In this document: positions 25,378 through 31,456 of the stretch, in pieces | Layout: each line of letters begins with the position of its first letter | Numbering within the stretch: position 1 is the first letter of the stretch | DNA from: Candidatus Mediterraneibacter intestinigallinarum | GTDB lineage: Bacteria; Bacillota; Clostridia; Lachnospirales; Lachnospiraceae | Assembly: GCA_019119265.1 (NCBI GenBank) | Contig: DWXI01000189.1 | Span: 1 to 45,606 of the forward strand | Length of the DNA stretch: 45,606 bases | Direction: 5' to 3' | Notes under the pieces: generated by a model | What the model saw: the letters and a program-made list of their open reading frames with translations, nothing else | What the model was told of the DNA's origin: nothing | The model's database searches: none | Position numbers and translations under genes: made by a program

Positions 25378-25401
25378 TGTCTTACTCCTTTAGAACTGAT
25401 C

Positions 25402-25422
25402 TGTCCGCCTTGTGCGCGGACA
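25402..25422 (-). promoter_or_regulatory. Leader hairpin of proB
   Basis: TGTCCGC / GCGGACA, a 7-bp perfect GC-rich stem with a 7-nt loop, in the short proB leader about 25 nt before the start codon. It could tune initiation or mRNA life. It is too small for a T-box. Confidence 0.45.
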
Positions 25423-25433
25423 CTTACTGTGAT

Positions 25434-25461
25434 ATCGTAACACAGATATGACTTTTGTCAA
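25434..25461 (-). promoter_or_regulatory. Sigma-A promoter of proB
   Basis: Minus strand: TTGACA (25461-25456), 16-nt spacer, TACGAT (25439-25434). The end of the structured repeat lies 7 nt upstream of the -35 box. Confidence 0.7.
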
Positions 25462-25467
25462 GCGACA

Positions 25468-25620
25468 GTTCAGCCGTAAGAAGAGGAAGGGGATGATTTA
25501 TGCCTGCATAAGGATCAGCCCCTTCCTCTTCTGACGAGCTGAGCGCCAGTACATGAGGAAAACAGCGGCGAAGCCGCAGTAAGCACGACAGTGCGGTTTT
25601 CCGAATGGCGCGTGCTGAAC
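25468..25620 (+). repeat. Structured repeat, copy 1 (153 bp)
   Basis: Bounded by GTTCAGC (25468-25474) and GCTGAAC (25614-25620), which pair. Inside are a copy-specific hairpin (AAGAGGAAGGGG 25481-25492 with CCCCTTCCTCTT 25519-25530, apex stem TTATGC/GCATAA) and an 85-nt core (25536-25620) shared with copy 2 at 79 of 85 positions. The core folds as GCGCC/GGCGC, then GGAAAAC/GTTTTCC, enclosing two small hairpins (GCGGC-GAA-GCCGC and GCAC-GACA-GTGC). Nearly all differences between copies fall in predicted unpaired bases. No reading frame or transposase is associated. It fills much of the 371-nt gap between proB and the symporter gene. Confidence 0.88.
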
Positions 25621-25656
25621 GGTTACTATATCAAGAATAATGGAAATAAATATCTA

Positions 25657-25685
25657 TTGCCAGCACCGTACATATCAATTATAAT
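25657..25685 (+). promoter_or_regulatory. Sigma-A promoter of the symporter gene
   Basis: TTGCCA (25657-25662), 17-nt spacer, TATAAT (25680-25685), 63 nt before the start codon. A near-palindrome follows at 25696-25722. Confidence 0.7.
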
Positions 25686-25695
25686 AGGACGGCAC

Positions 25696-25722
25696 ATCAT
25701 GAATAGTAAACTATATCATGAT
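25696..25722 (+). promoter_or_regulatory. Possible operator or leader hairpin before the symporter gene
   Basis: ATCATGA-ATAGT, two-base loop, ACTAT-A-TCATGAT: 12 paired bases with one bulged A, starting about 4 nt after the expected transcription start. The position fits a repressor site or a 5' stabilising hairpin; no regulator gene is adjacent. Confidence 0.45.
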
Positions 25723-25748
25723 AAACTGAGAAAAAGAGAGGATTTCAA

Positions 25749-26966
25749 ATGAAAAAAATATTCACAAGTCTTCCGTTTAAACTGCTTGTAGGAGTAGTGA
25801 TCGGAATCATCGCAGGACAGTTTGCAGGATTTGAATCTGCCGGGACTGTCGGAGACGCCGTGATGAATGTTGTCGTAACTGTCAGATTTATATTGTCGGA
25901 GCTTATCAATTTCTGCGTGCCGCTGATCATTATAGGATTTATCGCGCCGTCGATCACAAGGCTCGGAAGAAATGCGTCCCGGATGCTTGGGGTGGCGCTG
26001 TTCTGCGCCTATACGTCGTCTATTCTGGCGGCGCTTCTGTCCATGGCTGCCGGATACGGGATCATTCCCAGGCTGTCCATCGTTTCTGAGGTGGAAGGAC
26101 TGAAAGAACTTCCGGAAGTGATATTCCAGTTAGAGATTCCGGAGATCATGTCGGTTATGAGCGCACTTGTACTGTCTGTGCTGCTTGGCCTTGCATGTAC
26201 GTGGACGAATGCAGTGACCATGACAAACCTGCTGGAAGAGTTCCAGAAGATTGTTCTGCAGGTCGTTACCAGAGTTGTGATTCCCGTCCTTCCGGTGTTT
26301 ATCGGATTTACTTTCTGTGCGCTTTCTTATGAAGGTACAATCACAAAACAGCTTCCGGTATTCATACAGATCGTACTGATCGTCATTGTGGGGCATTATC
26401 TCTGGATGGCAGTGCTCTATATCGCAGCAGGCATCTATTCGGGCAGTAACCCGCTGGACGTGATAAAGAACTACGGACCGGCATATATCACTGCTATCGG
26501 CACCATGTCTTCGGCAGCGACGCTGGCAGTGGCGCTGCGCTGCGCGAAGAAATCAGAGCCGCCTCTTCGGGATGACATGGTGGATTTCGGTATTCCGCTG
26601 TTTGCCAATATCCATCTGTGCGGTTCCGTGCTGACCGAAGTGTTCTTCGTTATGACCGTATCTCAGATTCTGTACGGGAAGATGCCGGATGTAGGAACGA
26701 TGATACTGTTCTGTCTGCTCCTGGGCGTCTTTGCCATCGGAGCGCCGGGAGTTCCGGGCGGAACGGTCATGGCTTCCCTGGGCCTGATAACAGGCATTCT
26801 TGGATTTGACGAGACAGGAACGGCGCTGATGCTTACCATCTTTGCGCTTCAGGATAGCTTCGGTACGGCCTGCAATATTACCGGGGACGGCGCGTTGACC
26901 ATGATCCTGTCAGGGTATGCCAACAGGCATAAAATCGGAAAACAGAATCTGAAGATCGATCTGTAA
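25749..26966 (+). CDS. Dicarboxylate/amino acid:cation symporter (DAACS/GltP family)
   Basis: Membrane transporter of the glutamate/aspartate/dicarboxylate family, 405 aa with about eight membrane segments plus two re-entrant loops. Visible family features: serine-rich hairpin IGTMSSAATL (about 255), FGIPLFANIH, GAPGVPGGTV (about 337) and the substrate/cation motif NITGDGALT (about 376). Uptake is driven by Na+ or H+. Substrate could be glutamate, aspartate, a C4-dicarboxylate or a neutral amino acid. It has its own promoter and stands between the two inverted copies of the structured repeat. Convergent with the CmpB-like gene. Confidence 0.9.
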   Translation: MKKIFTSLPFKLLVGVVIGIIAGQFAGFESAGTVGDAVMNVVVTVRFILSELINFCVPLIIIGFIAPSITRLGRNASRMLGVALFCAYTSSILAALLSMAAGYGIIPRLSIVSEVEGLKELPEVIFQLEIPEIMSVMSALVLSVLLGLACTWTNAVTMTNLLEEFQKIVLQVVTRVVIPVLPVFIGFTFCALSYEGTITKQLPVFIQIVLIVIVGHYLWMAVLYIAAGIYSGSNPLDVIKNYGPAYITAIGTMSSAATLAVALRCAKKSEPPLRDDMVDFGIPLFANIHLCGSVLTEVFFVMTVSQILYGKMPDVGTMILFCLLLGVFAIGAPGVPGGTVMASLGLITGILGFDETGTALMLTIFALQDSFGTACNITGDGALTMILSGYANRHKIGKQNLKIDL

Positions 26967-26967
26967 A

Positions 26968-26993
26968 CAAAGCAGTCGTTTATCTCTGCTTTG
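26968..26993. terminator. Hairpin between convergent symporter and CmpB-like genes
   Basis: CAAAGCAG / CTGCTTTG (8-bp stem, 10-nt loop) starting just after the symporter stop and covering the CmpB stop codon. The T-run is short (CGTTT), so it is at best a modest terminator. Confidence 0.4.
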
Positions 26994-28278
26994 CGTTTGG
27001 GTATATCTGCTGCATCCTGCTGTCATCAAAGGTCTCATCTATGATCTGCTCCCAGCCGCTGTTGGCAGCAGGTCCGCCCGCTCTCTGATCATATCGGATC
27101 AATGCTGCAGATGAGACAACGATGTCGGCAGTCATGAAGACGACCAGGATCCAGGTGGCTATATATCCTGCAAGTTTCGGAATTCGTTCGATCCATCCGG
27201 AGAACCTGGGATACAGAAGCTTGATCCAGACAACAGCGGCAATTCCCCAAAAAAAGCAGTATAGGAGATTCACTCTGCCGCCAAGGTTGAAGGGAATGCT
27301 GCTGTAATCCCAGAAAACTTTGCCGAATACAAGTTCCGTGAAAACGCTGCAGACATATTCGTAGGCACCGCCAAGAAATGTACCGATAAGAAAGATATGC
27401 CGGTCAGGTTTTTCCCTGTCTTTATAAAGAAGAGAAGTGGCAAGAGCGATGGCAAGGCCCCATACGATGCTGAAAGGGCCCCATACAAGACTGCTTCTGC
27501 TCATCCAGACACCGGCGGTAATGCGGCAGAAAATCGTTTCTGTGATATCTCCTAAGACAGCGCCAATAAGAAAGAGCCAGAATAGCTTATAGAAGCCGCA
27601 GCCTTCTGCAAACTTTCCGCCTTTTAAGATCTCTTCTGACTTTTCTTCGATGACGGGATATGCTTTGGCCATACGGCGCTCTACATAGCTGATGAGAGAA
27701 ATCGCAGCTCGAAATATGCCGGAGGAGAGCCTTCCGGTATGTTCTGGTGTTCCTTTTCTGCTTCTTCGCATATGCAATACTGCTGCAAGTGAGACTGCCG
27801 CGTCAAGGACCATATAACCTGTGAGAACCCATGTGATCACTGCGGGAACCGGTTCGGGAATAAGTTTATAGAGAAACAGGAAGAACGTATTCCCGTACCG
27901 CACGCTGACAGAGCCGAGGATGGCCCATAGTACTGTGTATTCCAGACAGATATATCCGTCAAAATTCCACTTCTTATTCGAATAATCCCACCATTTGCGG
28001 CGGTTTACCAGTTCCAGGAGCTTGCCGGCAAACCATTCGATGGCGGTGGCCTGTATTCCGCATCCGATAAACAGAAAAACAGGATTGTCCGTCAGATCAG
28101 CAAGAGTGATCTGCATGACGGCCGCTGCAATTCCGTATATCATACAGAAAGGACCGGTGGAAAATCCACGGTTCGTAAATCTTTTGTTCTTGATCGTTCC
28201 GACTACCGCCTCAAAGATCCATCCCAGGAAAGAATAGATGAGGAAGAGCCAGAATATTTCCGTAATTGTGTATTCCAT
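26980..28278 (-). CDS. CmpB-family (ABC_trans_CmpB) membrane protein, tandem-duplicated
   Basis: 432-aa polytopic membrane protein of the Clostridia family labelled 'putative ABC-transporter type IV' (CmpB); the actual function of the family is not established. Two halves repeat the same fold: IFWLFLIYSFLGWIFEAVVG with GFSTGPFCMIYG near the N-terminus, and LFWLFLIGAVLGDITETIFC with SSLVWGPFSIVWG from about residue 230. No ATP-binding partner is adjacent. The only clear ribosome site, AAGGAG, is 17 nt before the ATG, an unusually long gap, and no in-frame start lies between, so translation may be weak. Confidence 0.8.
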   Translation of the reverse strand: MEYTITEIFWLFLIYSFLGWIFEAVVGTIKNKRFTNRGFSTGPFCMIYGIAAAVMQITLADLTDNPVFLFIGCGIQATAIEWFAGKLLELVNRRKWWDYSNKKWNFDGYICLEYTVLWAILGSVSVRYGNTFFLFLYKLIPEPVPAVITWVLTGYMVLDAAVSLAAVLHMRRSRKGTPEHTGRLSSGIFRAAISLISYVERRMAKAYPVIEEKSEEILKGGKFAEGCGFYKLFWLFLIGAVLGDITETIFCRITAGVWMSRSSLVWGPFSIVWGLAIALATSLLYKDREKPDRHIFLIGTFLGGAYEYVCSVFTELVFGKVFWDYSSIPFNLGGRVNLLYCFFWGIAAVVWIKLLYPRFSGWIERIPKLAGYIATWILVVFMTADIVVSSAALIRYDQRAGGPAANSGWEQIIDETFDDSRMQQIYPNAKQR

Positions 28279-28728
28279 GGCGTATCTTTTGTAATCTCCT
28301 TTTAAAAATCAAACAGTATAGTCGGTATGATATCACATCTTCCGGCCGGATGGCAATATTGACGCGGCTACGCTCAGTTCAGCCCTTGTCAGTTCAGCCC
28401 GCGCCATTCGGAAAACCGCACTGTCGTGCTTACTGCGGCTGCGCCGCTGTTTTCCTCATATGCCGGCGCTCAACTCATGGAACTGACCGCTCGAAAAATC
28501 ATGCGAGCATGATTTTCTCTCCCGTACAGTTCCATGGCTGAACTGTTTAAAGAAAATCTTAATAATTCTATATACTAAATCATCATGTTTTCATTAAAAA
28601 TCATTAATCCCGCACTGATATCATTTTCTTATCGATCGGTAAGGTGCTGCCAGGAACAGACAGCAGTCAGACACATAGCAACAGAGCGGCTCCAGGTAGT
28701 CCGTTTTGGGGAAAAGGAGAGAAAGAAA
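28279..28728. other. 450-nt gap between divergent CmpB-like gene and vanG-type ligase gene
   Basis: It holds the second structured repeat (28392-28543), an extra copy of the repeat's end sequence (CAGTTCAGCCC at 28375-28385 and again at 28390-28400), and on the minus strand a weak possible CmpB promoter (TTGCCA, 18 nt, TATCAT). On the plus strand a TATACT at 28571-28576 without a good -35 is the only promoter candidate for the van genes. No coding region is convincing here. Confidence 0.6.
28392..28543 (-). repeat. Structured repeat, copy 2 (152 bp), inverted relative to copy 1
   Basis: Bounded by GTTCAGC (28392-28398) and GCTGAAC (28537-28543); with neighbours the ends form a 10-bp perfect inverted repeat (CAGTTCAGCC/GGCTGAACTG). 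The shared core is 28392-28476. The copy-specific part is a different long hairpin: CATGGAACTG (28476-28485) with CAGTTCCATG (28527-28536), and at its apex AAAATCATGC/GCATGATTTT with a two-base loop. It lies between the CmpB-like gene and the van-type cluster. Confidence 0.88.
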
Positions 28729-29811
28729 ATGAATGACAACAGAATAACAGAGGCAGGAAACATAAGGAAGAGAATCGCTGTTCTTTTCGGCGGATGCTCT
28801 ACAGAATATGAAGTGTCGCTCCAGTCAGCACATGCAGTGATAGAAAATATGGATACAGACCGTTATGAACAGATCCTGATCGGCATCAGCCGTCAGACCG
28901 GACAGTGGTATCTGTACCAGGGGAGTATCGATGATATACCCGAAGATAAATGGTTCAATGATAAGAACTGTACTCCTGTATGGGTATCAACGGATAAGAC
29001 GGTACACGGTATCTGTTACCAGGGAGCGGAAGAAATCCGTTCAATCTCGCTGGATGCGGCTTTCCCAATCCTTCACGGGAAGAACGGAGAAGACGGAACC
29101 GTACAGGGGATGCTGGAGCTGGCCGGGATACCGGTCGTGGGCTGTGGAATGCTCAGCTCTGCTGTAGGGATGGACAAAGAGCTCTCACACAGGGTTGCCG
29201 CGGCGGCGGGCGTACCGGTGGCGGAGACTGTAACAGTTATGAAACCGTATGATGGACGCGAGATGAAAAAATGCGCCCTCAGACTGGGATATCCGCTGTT
29301 TGTAAAGCCGGTTCGCGCAGGCTCATCATTCGGTATTACGAGGGTCTGCAGAGAGGAGGATCTTATTCCTGCAGTGGAACTTGCATTTGAACATGATTCC
29401 GAGGTGATCCTGGAAGAACAGATCAGGGGATTCGAAGTGGGCTGCGCGGTCCTTGGAAACGGAGACCTTTTTATCGGAGAGGTGGATGAGATCGAACTGT
29501 CGGAGGGATTCTTCAATTATGAGGAAAAATATACCCTCAAGACATCCAATATCTATGTGCCGGCCAGGATTCCTCATGAGAAAGCGGAAGAAATCCGCCA
29601 TATGGCAGGGCTTATCTACCGCGCTTTAAAATGCAGGGATTTTGCAAGGGTAGATATGTTCCTGACACCTGAAGGGAAGATTTACTTTAACGAAGTAAAT
29701 ACGATCCCGGGATTTACAGCGCACAGCCGATATCCGGGTATGATGAAGGCGGCAGGCATTTCTTTTCGTGAACTGATCGGTCGGCTGATTGAGATGGAGG
29801 TGGGAGCATGA
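28729..29811 (+). CDS. vanG: VanG-type D-alanine--D-serine ligase
   Basis: ATP-grasp ligase predicted to make D-Ala-D-Ser for peptidoglycan precursors with low vancomycin affinity. 360 aa. Family motifs: FGGCSTEYEVSLQSA (20-34), HGKNGEDGT (116-124), and NEVNTIPGFTAHSRYPGMM near the C-terminus. The omega-loop region reads GFFNYEEKYTLKTS (EKYTLKTS at 266-273), as in VanG/VanC-type D-Ser ligases, without the His-containing loop of D-Lac ligases. Start 28729 has AAGGAG 9 nt before it; an in-frame ATG at 28585 lacks one. The next three overlapping genes complete the pathway, which supports this over a housekeeping Ddl. Confidence 0.88.
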   Translation: MNDNRITEAGNIRKRIAVLFGGCSTEYEVSLQSAHAVIENMDTDRYEQILIGISRQTGQWYLYQGSIDDIPEDKWFNDKNCTPVWVSTDKTVHGICYQGAEEIRSISLDAAFPILHGKNGEDGTVQGMLELAGIPVVGCGMLSSAVGMDKELSHRVAAAAGVPVAETVTVMKPYDGREMKKCALRLGYPLFVKPVRAGSSFGITRVCREEDLIPAVELAFEHDSEVILEEQIRGFEVGCAVLGNGDLFIGEVDEIELSEGFFNYEEKYTLKTSNIYVPARIPHEKAEEIRHMAGLIYRALKCRDFARVDMFLTPEGKIYFNEVNTIPGFTAHSRYPGMMKAAGISFRELIGRLIEMEVGA

Positions 29812-30386
29812 TGGAAGATTACCTTGTCCTTGTAAATGCAGAACATCCGCTCAGAGTGCAGATGGACAAAACGGATCTTGTATGTGCTTTTGACGACCAT
29901 CCGGGCGTTCTGTTGGAGAGGACGGCGGCAAAAGCCCTGCGGGCGCTGCTGACAGATATCGGCAACAGAGACTCTATCGTTCCTGTGAGCGGCTGGCGCT
30001 CACGGGAAGAACAGAAAAAGATATGGGAAGATACAGTGGCGGAGAAAGGGATCGCATTTGCAAGAAAGTATGTGGCTCTTCCGGCATGTAGCGAACACGA
30101 GACGGGGCTTGCCATTGACCTTGCGGCCAACGCACAAGACATAGATTTTATCTGCCCCGAGTTTCCGCGATCGGGAATCTGTCAGAAATTCCGGGAAGCA
30201 GCGCCTTACTACGGGTTTGTTGAGCGGTATGCGAAGGAGAAAGAACCGGTCACCGGAATTAGTGGGGAACCGTGGCATTTCCGCTATGTGGGCACGCCCC
30301 ATTCCGAGATCATGGCAAGGAAAGGAATGTGCCTTGAGGAATATGTCGAGCGCAGACGGTATTGTGAAGAAAGGAAGACAAGATGA
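29808..30386 (+). CDS. vanXY: VanXY-type D,D-dipeptidase/D,D-carboxypeptidase
   Basis: Zinc peptidase expected to destroy D-Ala-D-Ala dipeptide and trim pentapeptide ends, leaving only D-Ala-D-Ser precursors. 192 aa, no signal peptide, so cytoplasmic as in VanXY. Zinc and catalytic residues: His97 and Asp104 (SEHETGLAIDL), Glu154 and His157 (EPWHFRYVG), and Arg64 (SGWRS). The start overlaps the ligase stop by four bases (ATGA); ATG 29811 is an equal alternative. The bifunctional VanXY label is by similarity; a plain VanY-type enzyme is possible. Confidence 0.85.
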   Translation: MMEDYLVLVNAEHPLRVQMDKTDLVCAFDDHPGVLLERTAAKALRALLTDIGNRDSIVPVSGWRSREEQKKIWEDTVAEKGIAFARKYVALPACSEHETGLAIDLAANAQDIDFICPEFPRSGICQKFREAAPYYGFVERYAKEKEPVTGISGEPWHFRYVGTPHSEIMARKGMCLEEYVERRRYCEERKTR

Positions 30387-31456
30387 AGGAAAAAGGGCGT
30401 ACGCAGGCTGTAAACTATGCCGGGATTGATGATTTCCGCATCCTTGCTGCCGTCATGGTGATCGCCATCCACACGGCTCCTTTTTCGGGAGTGAGTCAAA
30501 GCCTTGATTTCCTTCTGACTTACTGTGTGGGTAGGGTGGCGGTTCCTTTCTTCCTGATGACGACGGGGTTCTTTGTGCTGGGTTCGTGGAAGAAGAGCGT
30601 GTATGCAGATAATAGTAAAGTGATCCGTTTTATAAAGAAGACATTGTTTTTATACGCGGTATCAGTGGTGCTCTATCTTCCGGTCAATTTCTATTCGGGA
30701 GAGCTTCCCCGGAGCGCGGGCGGATTCATCAGCATGCTTTTCTTTGACGGAACCTTTTATCATCTCTGGTACTTCCCGGCAGTGATCCTTGGGTGTCTGG
30801 CGGTTATCGTGCTGCTGAGATACTTTTCGGAGCGCACAGTTCTGGTGATCACGGTTCTGCTTTATCTGGCCGGAACAGGGGGCGACAGCTATTTCGGACT
30901 TGCCAGCCGTATCCCTGCGCTGAAAGCAGTATATGAGGCAATGTTTACTGTGAGCAGTTATACGCGGAACGGTATTTTTTATGCGCCTGTATTCCTTCTT
31001 ATGGGGATGCTGATCCGGGGAAGGATGAGGCAGAGGGGAGAAGATGCTGACGGAGGAGTCGGGAGAATGACGGGGAATATTGTCTGTCTGGCTGTCAGTC
31101 TGGTACTGATGCTTGGGGAAGGATATCTGACGTTCAGCATGAATCTCCAGCGTCATAACAGTATGTACCTGTTCCTTATACCGGTCATGTACTTCTTGTT
31201 CCGATTGCTGTTGTGTGTTCCGGGAAATGCACCGGTTTGGACACGGAATGTTTCCATGATCGTATATGTAATCCACCCGGCAGTTCTCATTGTTCTTCGA
31301 GGGGTTGCAGGAGTGGCAGGACTGACTCCGCTGCTTGTGGAAAATGCACTGGTACAGTTTATAAGTGTTGCGATCCTGTCGTTTGCCCTTGCGGCGCTGC
31401 TTGAACGGATGTACTTCCGGCTGCGCAGAAGAAAGGAGGCGCACGAAAATGGGTGA
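30383..31456 (+). CDS. VanT membrane half: acyltransferase_3-type integral membrane protein
   Basis: 357 aa, about ten membrane segments, matching the N-terminal membrane domain of VanT serine racemases (acyltransferase 3 fold; GIDDFRILAAVMVIAIHTAP near 15-34 and VAVPFFLMTTGFF near 55). In VanT proteins this domain is thought to bring in L-serine and is fused to the racemase. Here it ends alone (RRRKEAHENG, stop at 31456) and the racemase is a separate gene starting 8 nt before that stop. It overlaps vanXY by four bases. Confidence 0.82.
   Translation: MKEKGRTQAVNYAGIDDFRILAAVMVIAIHTAPFSGVSQSLDFLLTYCVGRVAVPFFLMTTGFFVLGSWKKSVYADNSKVIRFIKKTLFLYAVSVVLYLPVNFYSGELPRSAGGFISMLFFDGTFYHLWYFPAVILGCLAVIVLLRYFSERTVLVITVLLYLAGTGGDSYFGLASRIPALKAVYEAMFTVSSYTRNGIFYAPVFLLMGMLIRGRMRQRGEDADGGVGRMTGNIVCLAVSLVLMLGEGYLTFSMNLQRHNSMYLFLIPVMYFLFRLLLCVPGNAPVWTRNVSMIVYVIHPAVLIVLRGVAGVAGLTPLLVENALVQFISVAILSFALAALLERMYFRLRRRKEAHENG

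Follow-up and report, generated by a model that had tools for sequence, protein, structure and literature searches.

A DNA stretch of 45,606 nucleotides from Candidatus Mediterraneibacter intestinigallinarum (contig DWXI01000189.1), referred to here as the window and giving the coordinates used below, holds two mutually inverted copies of a short structured element, copy 1 on the + strand and copy 2 on the - strand. We conclude that they belong to a new family of miniature inverted-repeat transposable elements (MITEs), which has IS66-type ends and bears a module resembling the Clostridiales-1 RNA (Rfam RF01699) together with an exchangeable hairpin arm. The evidence lies in transposon ends, target duplications, an empty orthologous site, covariation, a strand asymmetry and arm differences at orthologous sites. 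The explanation that we consider probable is that this MITE with IS66 ends is moved in trans, that its interior is kept for the fold of the + strand, and that its arms can be exchanged.

Transposon ends and a candidate mover

The original prediction had described a two-copy element. With the 80-nt core of copy 1 as a query, the organism's own draft genome, which comprises 3.11 Mb in 258 contigs and is 88.5% complete, gave instead 44 matches, some of them partial. A core query matched 48 of the 58 genomes of the genus; at most 15 candidates were scored per genome, so that copy numbers are lower bounds. The loci collected held 179 core matches in 153 loci, some of which overlap. A 5' end was recognised in 111 copies, and 102 distinct full copies with flanks made up alignment A2. 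For the duplication test, 95 distinct flank pairs entered the count, and for the strand tests 101 copies, the misaligned L049 being left out.

Full copies open with GTAACAGTTCAGCC and close with its inverted form. The GTTCAGC/GCTGAAC part of these terminal inverted repeats was paired in 99.0% of cells in the aligned copies, and the GTAACA tip was intact at both ends in 25 of 95. An 8-bp target duplication at 7/8 or better flanked 22 of the 95 copies (17 exactly), as compared with a mean of 0.58 and a maximum of 4 in 2000 trials with shuffled partners, and six neighbouring offsets tested gave 0 or 1 copies. Among the copies with both tips intact, 13/25 had the duplication at 7/8 or better. An empty orthologous site was also found: the site of the second copy of L008 is filled there and without element in L141. 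Eight junction-spanning candidates had been obtained, four of which were the copy's own locus (tandem or partial copies) and one a tandem copy (L098/L151); the other three were aligned. L021/L098 (78%) was rejected as an empty site because the alignment was poor exactly at the junction, and L051 as the empty site for L009 because a core fragment is present at the L009 site. A search of 58 genomes found no ortholog for the site of L005.

The identity of the element as a transposon, and of the family as MITEs, is thus well supported, and the mobile-element alternative raised originally was borne out by terminal repeats, target duplications, the empty site and the arm exchange at orthologous sites described below. 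An element of the REP/RAYT or IS200/IS605 type was ruled out by the terminal inverted repeats and target duplications, neither of which such elements are known to have. The element may be likened to the bacterial MITEs ERIC, NEMIS and BOX. Like MITEPsy1, as presented in PMC3189936, it is short, non-coding, bounded by terminal inverted repeats and thought to be moved in trans. It differs from such MITEs by its strong covariation, by a core common to a MITE family with other ends, and by arm exchange at fixed sites.

As for the mover, an IS66 transposase was present in 20 of the 58 genus genomes. At locus L168 (genome G047), a 485-aa IS66-type transposase lies between the ends GTAACAGTTCAGCC / GTAACAGTTCACCC; GTAACAGTTCAGCCTTCCGGCT and GTAACAGTTCACCCTTCCGACT stand on either side of the gene, the whole measures 1820 bp, and the duplication CGAAAAAA is present at both of its ends. 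The protein scored 145.6 against the IS66 NCBIfam model, below its cut-off of 180, and 75.5 against Pfam PF03050, above the cut-off of 23.1. Through L168, the family thus shows the end features of the IS66 ISBst12 group, that is, a terminal repeat GTAAC.., an 8-bp duplication and a single-ORF (open reading frame) transposase in the parent. In that group, ISDge4 is given ends GTGACTACTCAGCA / GTAACTGCTCAGCA, one ORF and an 8-bp repeat in PMC12898284. The likeness to such single-ORF elements, ISDge4 included (PMC12898284), resides in the GTAACnGnTCAGC-type terminal repeats and the 8-bp target duplication; unlike them, the MITE is about 164 bp long, carries no transposase and has a structured interior. 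Mobilisation in trans by an IS66 transposase would fit these sequence features.

Among 20 fetched PF03050 loci of 41 places, L168 was the only close match in a search for the terminal repeat. Four more distant transposase relatives in the genus had 29-32% protein identity. Related transposases in G051 (L167, L246) and G005 (L247) had ends GTTACTGTTCA.. with 8-bp duplications, and no ends with duplication were found for relatives in G001 (L245) and G045 (L166, L248). Plasmid records gave four matches to the transposase, all below 30% identity. At L168 1-149, we noticed that a MITE copy directly adjoins the inserted IS66-type element, whose duplication overlaps with the last base of that copy.

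The family looks dispersed and mainly confined to one genus. An exact pattern matched at least 113 stretches in named genomes; among 80 titled matches listed, 36 were from Mediterraneibacter, and the others were from Lachnospiraceae, Blautia, Dorea, Claveliimonas, Lachnoclostridium, Ruminococcus, Lacrimispora, Eubacteriales or Clostridiales. Its range looks narrow since, under strict filters and with 14 candidates scored per genome, the family model matched only 2 of 196 genomes sampled from the class, the organism's own included. The exact pattern matched no viral contig, one copy used as a query matched no plasmid, and a phage search gave two partial matches, both in unannotated phage records.

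Several copies showed further particularities. Additional tandem or partial core copies lie beside full copies (L008 1501-1690, L029, L042, L006), and several partial ones begin with TGTGGACGCA. Internal-deletion derivatives retain both ends (L015 1731, L032, L035, L038), the shortest being 41 nt in total. The terminal repeat, read G-TAA-CAG, appears to give a neighbouring ORF an in-frame TAA stop, for instance at L016, L017 and L045, where the ORF ends 3 bases within the element.

Constraint on the fold and exchange of the arm

The interior comprises a long hairpin, the arm, and a branched core, which in copy 1 is made of an outer stem, an ATGAG/CGAAT internal loop, a GNAAAAC/GTTTTNC stem and two short hairpins. 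Across the 102 aligned copies, 98.3% of the cells in 35 consensus pairs were standard pairs and 17 of the 35 pairs showed double changes, neither figure being reached in 500 shuffles. Sliding the partner by 1-3 columns brought pairing down to 28-41%. Column pair 100-148, in the stem beside ATGAG, was CG in 42 copies, UA in 36 and GC in 20. Around the arm cap, 53 cells had double changes as compared with 16 after shuffling (0/500 as high); these concern 3 pairs, a count that 83/500 shuffles reach. Copies are related, which makes p-values optimistic. Because the pattern used to collect loci L041-L153 fixed parts of the 3' core, near-invariance there partly reflects this selection; the pattern left columns 144 and 148 free, and hairpin columns 108-121 lay outside it.

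In 93 of 101 copies, the + strand folded better than the - strand (81/96 for the arm and 100/100 for the core, ties excluded). Consensus pairs included 59 G-U versus 16 A-C, and 30 versus 9 in the 58 rows remaining after removal of close relatives. In unpaired columns, C>T stood at 61/605 versus 77/1289 for G>A, and T>C at 67/705 versus 69/1412 for A>G, biases that roughly cancel. The G-U excess favours a folded + strand, as RNA or as single-stranded DNA; we infer that the folded form is RNA and that the module has an RNA function. Structural constraint on the interior is well supported, and the selection on structure proposed originally stands on both covariation and the G-U versus A-C asymmetry. 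No hammerhead family appeared among Rfam matches at E<=5 in 25400-28600, so that a hammerhead ribozyme was set aside; k-turn and hammerhead readings of ATGAG/CGAAT were not supported either.

The arms of the two window copies had been said to share no sequence. Their middle does vary freely while staying paired, but in the 102 aligned copies both the cap, ATGC(T/C)(T/C)GCAT, and the base (CAT..ATG) are nearly constant. Full copies shared an insertion site, with both flanks alignable, in 13 groups; the site pairs with one alignable flank (L044/L052, L052/L117, L052/L111, L088/L091 and L098/L151) were left out. Arms were 83-100% identical in eight groups and 73% identical in one (L027/L112). In the other four (L008/L141; L010 and L073 versus L068; L013/L085; L066/L121), arm identity was 51% or less, with cores at 79.5-100% and flanks at 79-99%. 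The pair L010/L068 combined a 100% identical core with a 42% identical arm. Arm exchange is thus real. Rather than from point mutation, the new arms more likely came from another copy, by recombination, by conversion or by re-insertion into a tandem.

At 70%, single linkage sorted 101 arms into 13 groups, the two large ones holding 53 and 35 arms. Cores were barely more alike within arm groups (identity 0.836) than between them (0.810). The idea of a variable recognition arm was not supported: what is constant in the arm is its cap and base, and the same core variants occur with each of the two large arm groups.

An ordinary MITE with a palindromic interior might also account for much of this, covariation arising without function by template switching in imperfect hairpins and by gene conversion. 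Arm replacement at orthologous sites and the tandem and partial copies would be expected from it, and the ends and duplications suffice for spread. Yet short, widely separated core stems covary too, a strand-neutral mechanism does not predict more G-U than A-C, and Clostridiales-1 elements, whose ends are different, have the cap and the ATGAG/CGAAT loop as well (see below). We consider this explanation unlikely.

Kinship with Clostridiales-1 elements

At gathering level, Rfam gave no match in the window. Under relaxed conditions, RF01699 matched copy 1 over its whole length with 30 bits (gathering score 48; E 6.4e-4) and copy 2 with 16.8 bits (E 2.2). Of seven other loci, five had MITE copies that scored 27 to 45.3 bits, the best being L107 (E 5.5e-7, full-length); for the copies in L002 and L098, no match of this kind appeared at E<=1. 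A scan of 20 loci at gathering level found no MITE copy above the RF01699 cut-off. An existing Rfam or MITE entry explaining the element had been named as something that would refute the original interpretation. Clostridiales-1 goes half of the way, matching over the full length but below its gathering score.

The letters common to both are the cap UGCUUGCA and AUGAGCA..UGCGAAU. The order of a capped long hairpin followed by an AUGAG..CGAAU domain was present in alignments and in a pattern search with a reversed control. The likeness to RF01699 thus extends to the outer stem, the long hairpin with its UGCUUGCA cap and the AUGAG..CGAAU domain. In contrast, the MITE scores below gathering, lacks the third, 3' hairpin (about 34 model positions skipped in each of four MITE alignments) and has two hairpins, not one, in its core domain.

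Conversely, the family model was run on 23 loci. It gave 104 bits at L230, an element with similar ends in another genus, followed by L227 (49 bits), L243 (31), L233 (29.4) and L241 (21.6, E 9e-4); L233 and L241 hold elements above the RF01699 gathering score. The remaining Clostridiales-1 loci had E 0.02 or worse, or no match. Among 146 genomes of the order, 22 contained the pattern of cap, ATGAG and CGAAT, as compared with a single match for the reversed control over the whole set. On visual inspection, 13 of these 22 had element-like matches, and 10 of the 13 exceeded the RF01699 cut-off; the reversed control understates chance, since the other 9 of the 22 hold only chance-like matches. From these sequence comparisons we conclude that the MITE family and Clostridiales-1 are distant relatives and not the same family.

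Clostridiales-1 was described as a probable RNA, probably not cis-regulatory, from Clostridiales and human gut (Weinberg et al. 2010, PMC2864571); the text on it there, supplements aside, does not mention mobility. In the single-contig genome G017, we scored 40 Clostridiales-1 copies of 152 candidates. The 20 inspected have ends GATGCCAGGGTCAAAAG..CTTTTGACCCCGACATC and measure about 194 bp. Their flanking 7 bp, counted from a fixed end, matched at 6/7 or better in 17 of 20 copies (19 from G017 plus L224 from another genome), as compared with 2.1 in shuffles and a maximum of 8 in 5000; the other three have an exact 8-bp match one base out of register, and a further locus, L194, gave no match. 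Thus, Clostridiales-1 in G017 shares with our family a high copy number and MITE-type ends with duplications. The ends differ, being GTAACAGTTCAGCC with an 8-bp duplication in our family and GATGCCAGGGTCAAAAG with 7-8 bp in Clostridiales-1, and the two sets of terminal repeats are unrelated. A pattern search for a parent transposon of the G017 MITE found none, its four places all lying within the ends of known copies, and our literature search, supplements excluded, found no report linking the Clostridiales-1 "sRNA" (small RNA) to MITEs. Tandem arrays of Clostridiales-1-like units were also seen at L233 and L214, namely five matches repeating every 149 nt and a pair separated by 152 nt.

The window copies, their surroundings and the explanations compared

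Within the window, the two inverted copies do share a core, at 94% identity over 80 nt in the search of the own genome; the 79/85 reported earlier is reached when 5 further nt are added by eye. The family covariance model places the ends about 6 nt farther out on each side than the boundaries given originally. In both copies, arm and core fold as claimed; of the shuffles, 0/200 were as good for the arms and 1/200 for each core. The features are as follows.

25462-25626, + strand: MITE copy 1, whole (158.7 bits with the family model R1; the core query was taken from it)
25462-25475, + strand: left terminal inverted repeat of copy 1, which in the family reads GTAACAGTTCAGCC (sequence; repeat set by duplications at a fixed offset)
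25475-25536, + strand: the exchangeable arm of copy 1, a long hairpin (RNA fold -36.7 kcal/mol, z -6.6)
25541-25613, + strand: branched core of copy 1 (fold -31.5 kcal/mol, z -3.9; covariation)
25613-25626, + strand: right terminal inverted repeat of copy 1, degraded (sequence, family model)
28386-28549, - strand: MITE copy 2, whole, inverted relative to copy 1 (R1 170.1 bits; 94% core match)
28476-28536, - strand: exchangeable long hairpin (arm) of copy 2, of the other arm group (fold -30.3 kcal/mol, z -5.7)
28399-28471, - strand: branched core of copy 2 (fold -30.8 kcal/mol, z -2.7)
28373-28384, + strand: additional partial terminal-repeat sequence immediately outside copy 2 (by eye)
25565-25577, - strand: terminator-like hairpin and TGTTTT, antisense to copy 1 (consensus match only)
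28435-28447, + strand: terminator-like hairpin and TGTTTT, antisense to copy 2 (consensus match only)

The terminal tips of copy 1 are degraded (GCGACA / GGTTAC). Both copies look old, since the duplication slots of copy 1, TTTGTCAA / TATATCAA, match by eye at only 6/8 and no target duplication was found on reading the flanks of copy 2. Both sit between divergent genes. Promoter-like sites, as consensus matches only, flank copy 1 (25434-25461, - strand, and 25657-25685, + strand) and point to divergent proB and symporter genes. At 28729-31456 (+ strand), three adjoining genes resemble a VanG-type set: the D-Ala-D-Ser ligase exceeds the VanG model cut-off, and a VanXY-like peptidase and a VanT membrane part both fall below theirs.

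The terminator-like matches, one in each window copy, raise the possibility that the antisense core hairpin with its TGTTTT ends transcripts of a gene whose 3' end it abuts, the element acting as a terminator or insulator. Consistent with this, 15 of the 45 copies listed have a neighbour's stop codon within 10 bases of the element end, some of these stops coming from the terminal repeat, and placement is biased to antisense (see below). The region had six such consensus matches versus 3.0 in shuffles (standard deviation 1.6). However, the T run is the pairing partner of the core A run and no feature of the RF01699 consensus, the more stable fold is that of the + and not the - strand, and the scan covered the two window copies only. 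We regard a terminator role as rather improbable.

Several observations weigh against parts of the explanation that we prefer. Regarding the transposon, 73 of the 95 copies have no duplication at 7/8. No IS66 transposase was found in the organism's own draft genome, and the exact partner was found in one of the 58 genus genomes and in none of 299 family genomes at E<=1e-60; this limit, at which no match of any kind appeared, would conceal relatives of 32% identity too. Regarding the kinship, the RF01699 gathering score was reached by no copy scanned, the best having 45.3 bits versus 48. Regarding the folded strand, core pairs alone gave G-U 20 versus A-C 11, distinct pair positions gave 24 versus 14, and single-stranded DNA would account for the asymmetry too. 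In tandem gene settings, with genes taken as simple ORF calls, the + strand was antisense to both neighbours in 39 cases versus sense in 17 (p 0.005), or 28 versus 16 (p 0.10) when ORFs had to reach 200 aa, so that read-through would mostly yield the - strand. A consensus scan found no promoter-like site within either window copy, and the + strand transcript is a predicted one. In G017, the 40 scored Clostridiales-1 copies (L258-L297) were likewise antisense in 19 tandem settings versus 6, and 32 of the 40 were oriented alike relative to the chromosome halves (14:4 and 18:4), the halves assuming an origin near the record start and gene and replication direction being confounded.

The lack of an internal promoter-like site and the antisense placement also count against a dispersed small-RNA gene with the arm as its variable recognition element, as do the terminal repeats and target duplications and the fact that conservation lies in cap and base, not in the variable middle. 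The favoured + strand fold would agree with such a gene, as would the class to which Rfam assigns Clostridiales-1, sRNA. We find it very improbable.

According to our preferred explanation, that of an IS66-end MITE kept for its + strand fold, the element would be a non-autonomous DNA transposon, about 164 bp long, whose ends are those of the IS66 single-ORF (ISBst12) group and which is moved in trans by such an IS66-type transposase. Its interior would be a structured module distantly related to the Clostridiales-1 RNA, with a long hairpin bearing the conserved cap and a three-way domain closed by the ATGAG/CGAAT internal loop, and would be retained because the + strand folds when single-stranded, most likely as RNA. 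Cap and loop may be recognised by a host or element factor. The arm would be read by its shape and cap and not by its sequence, which would make arms exchangeable between dispersed copies, probably via recombination or gene conversion between copies, some of them in tandem.

There is thus at least one single-contig genome in which an Rfam "sRNA" of unassigned role proves to be a transposable element, and a related fold is present in a sister family whose ends are different. As a consequence, such RNA motifs in gut Clostridia need to be annotated and counted differently. Copies with the same site, the same core and a different arm provide natural experiments on why a transposon should keep an RNA-like fold. 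A broader proposal, towards which we remain more sceptical than convinced, is that Clostridia host a superfamily of mobile structured RNAs, in which one module, made of a capped hairpin of free sequence and an AUGAG/CGAAU domain, is carried by MITEs with at least two unrelated sets of ends, stays under selection for an RNA fold and is renewed through arm swapping between copies. Short interspersed elements (SINEs) and retrozymes are mobile non-coding RNAs; if the proposal is true, the superfamily would be their bacterial DNA-transposon counterpart.

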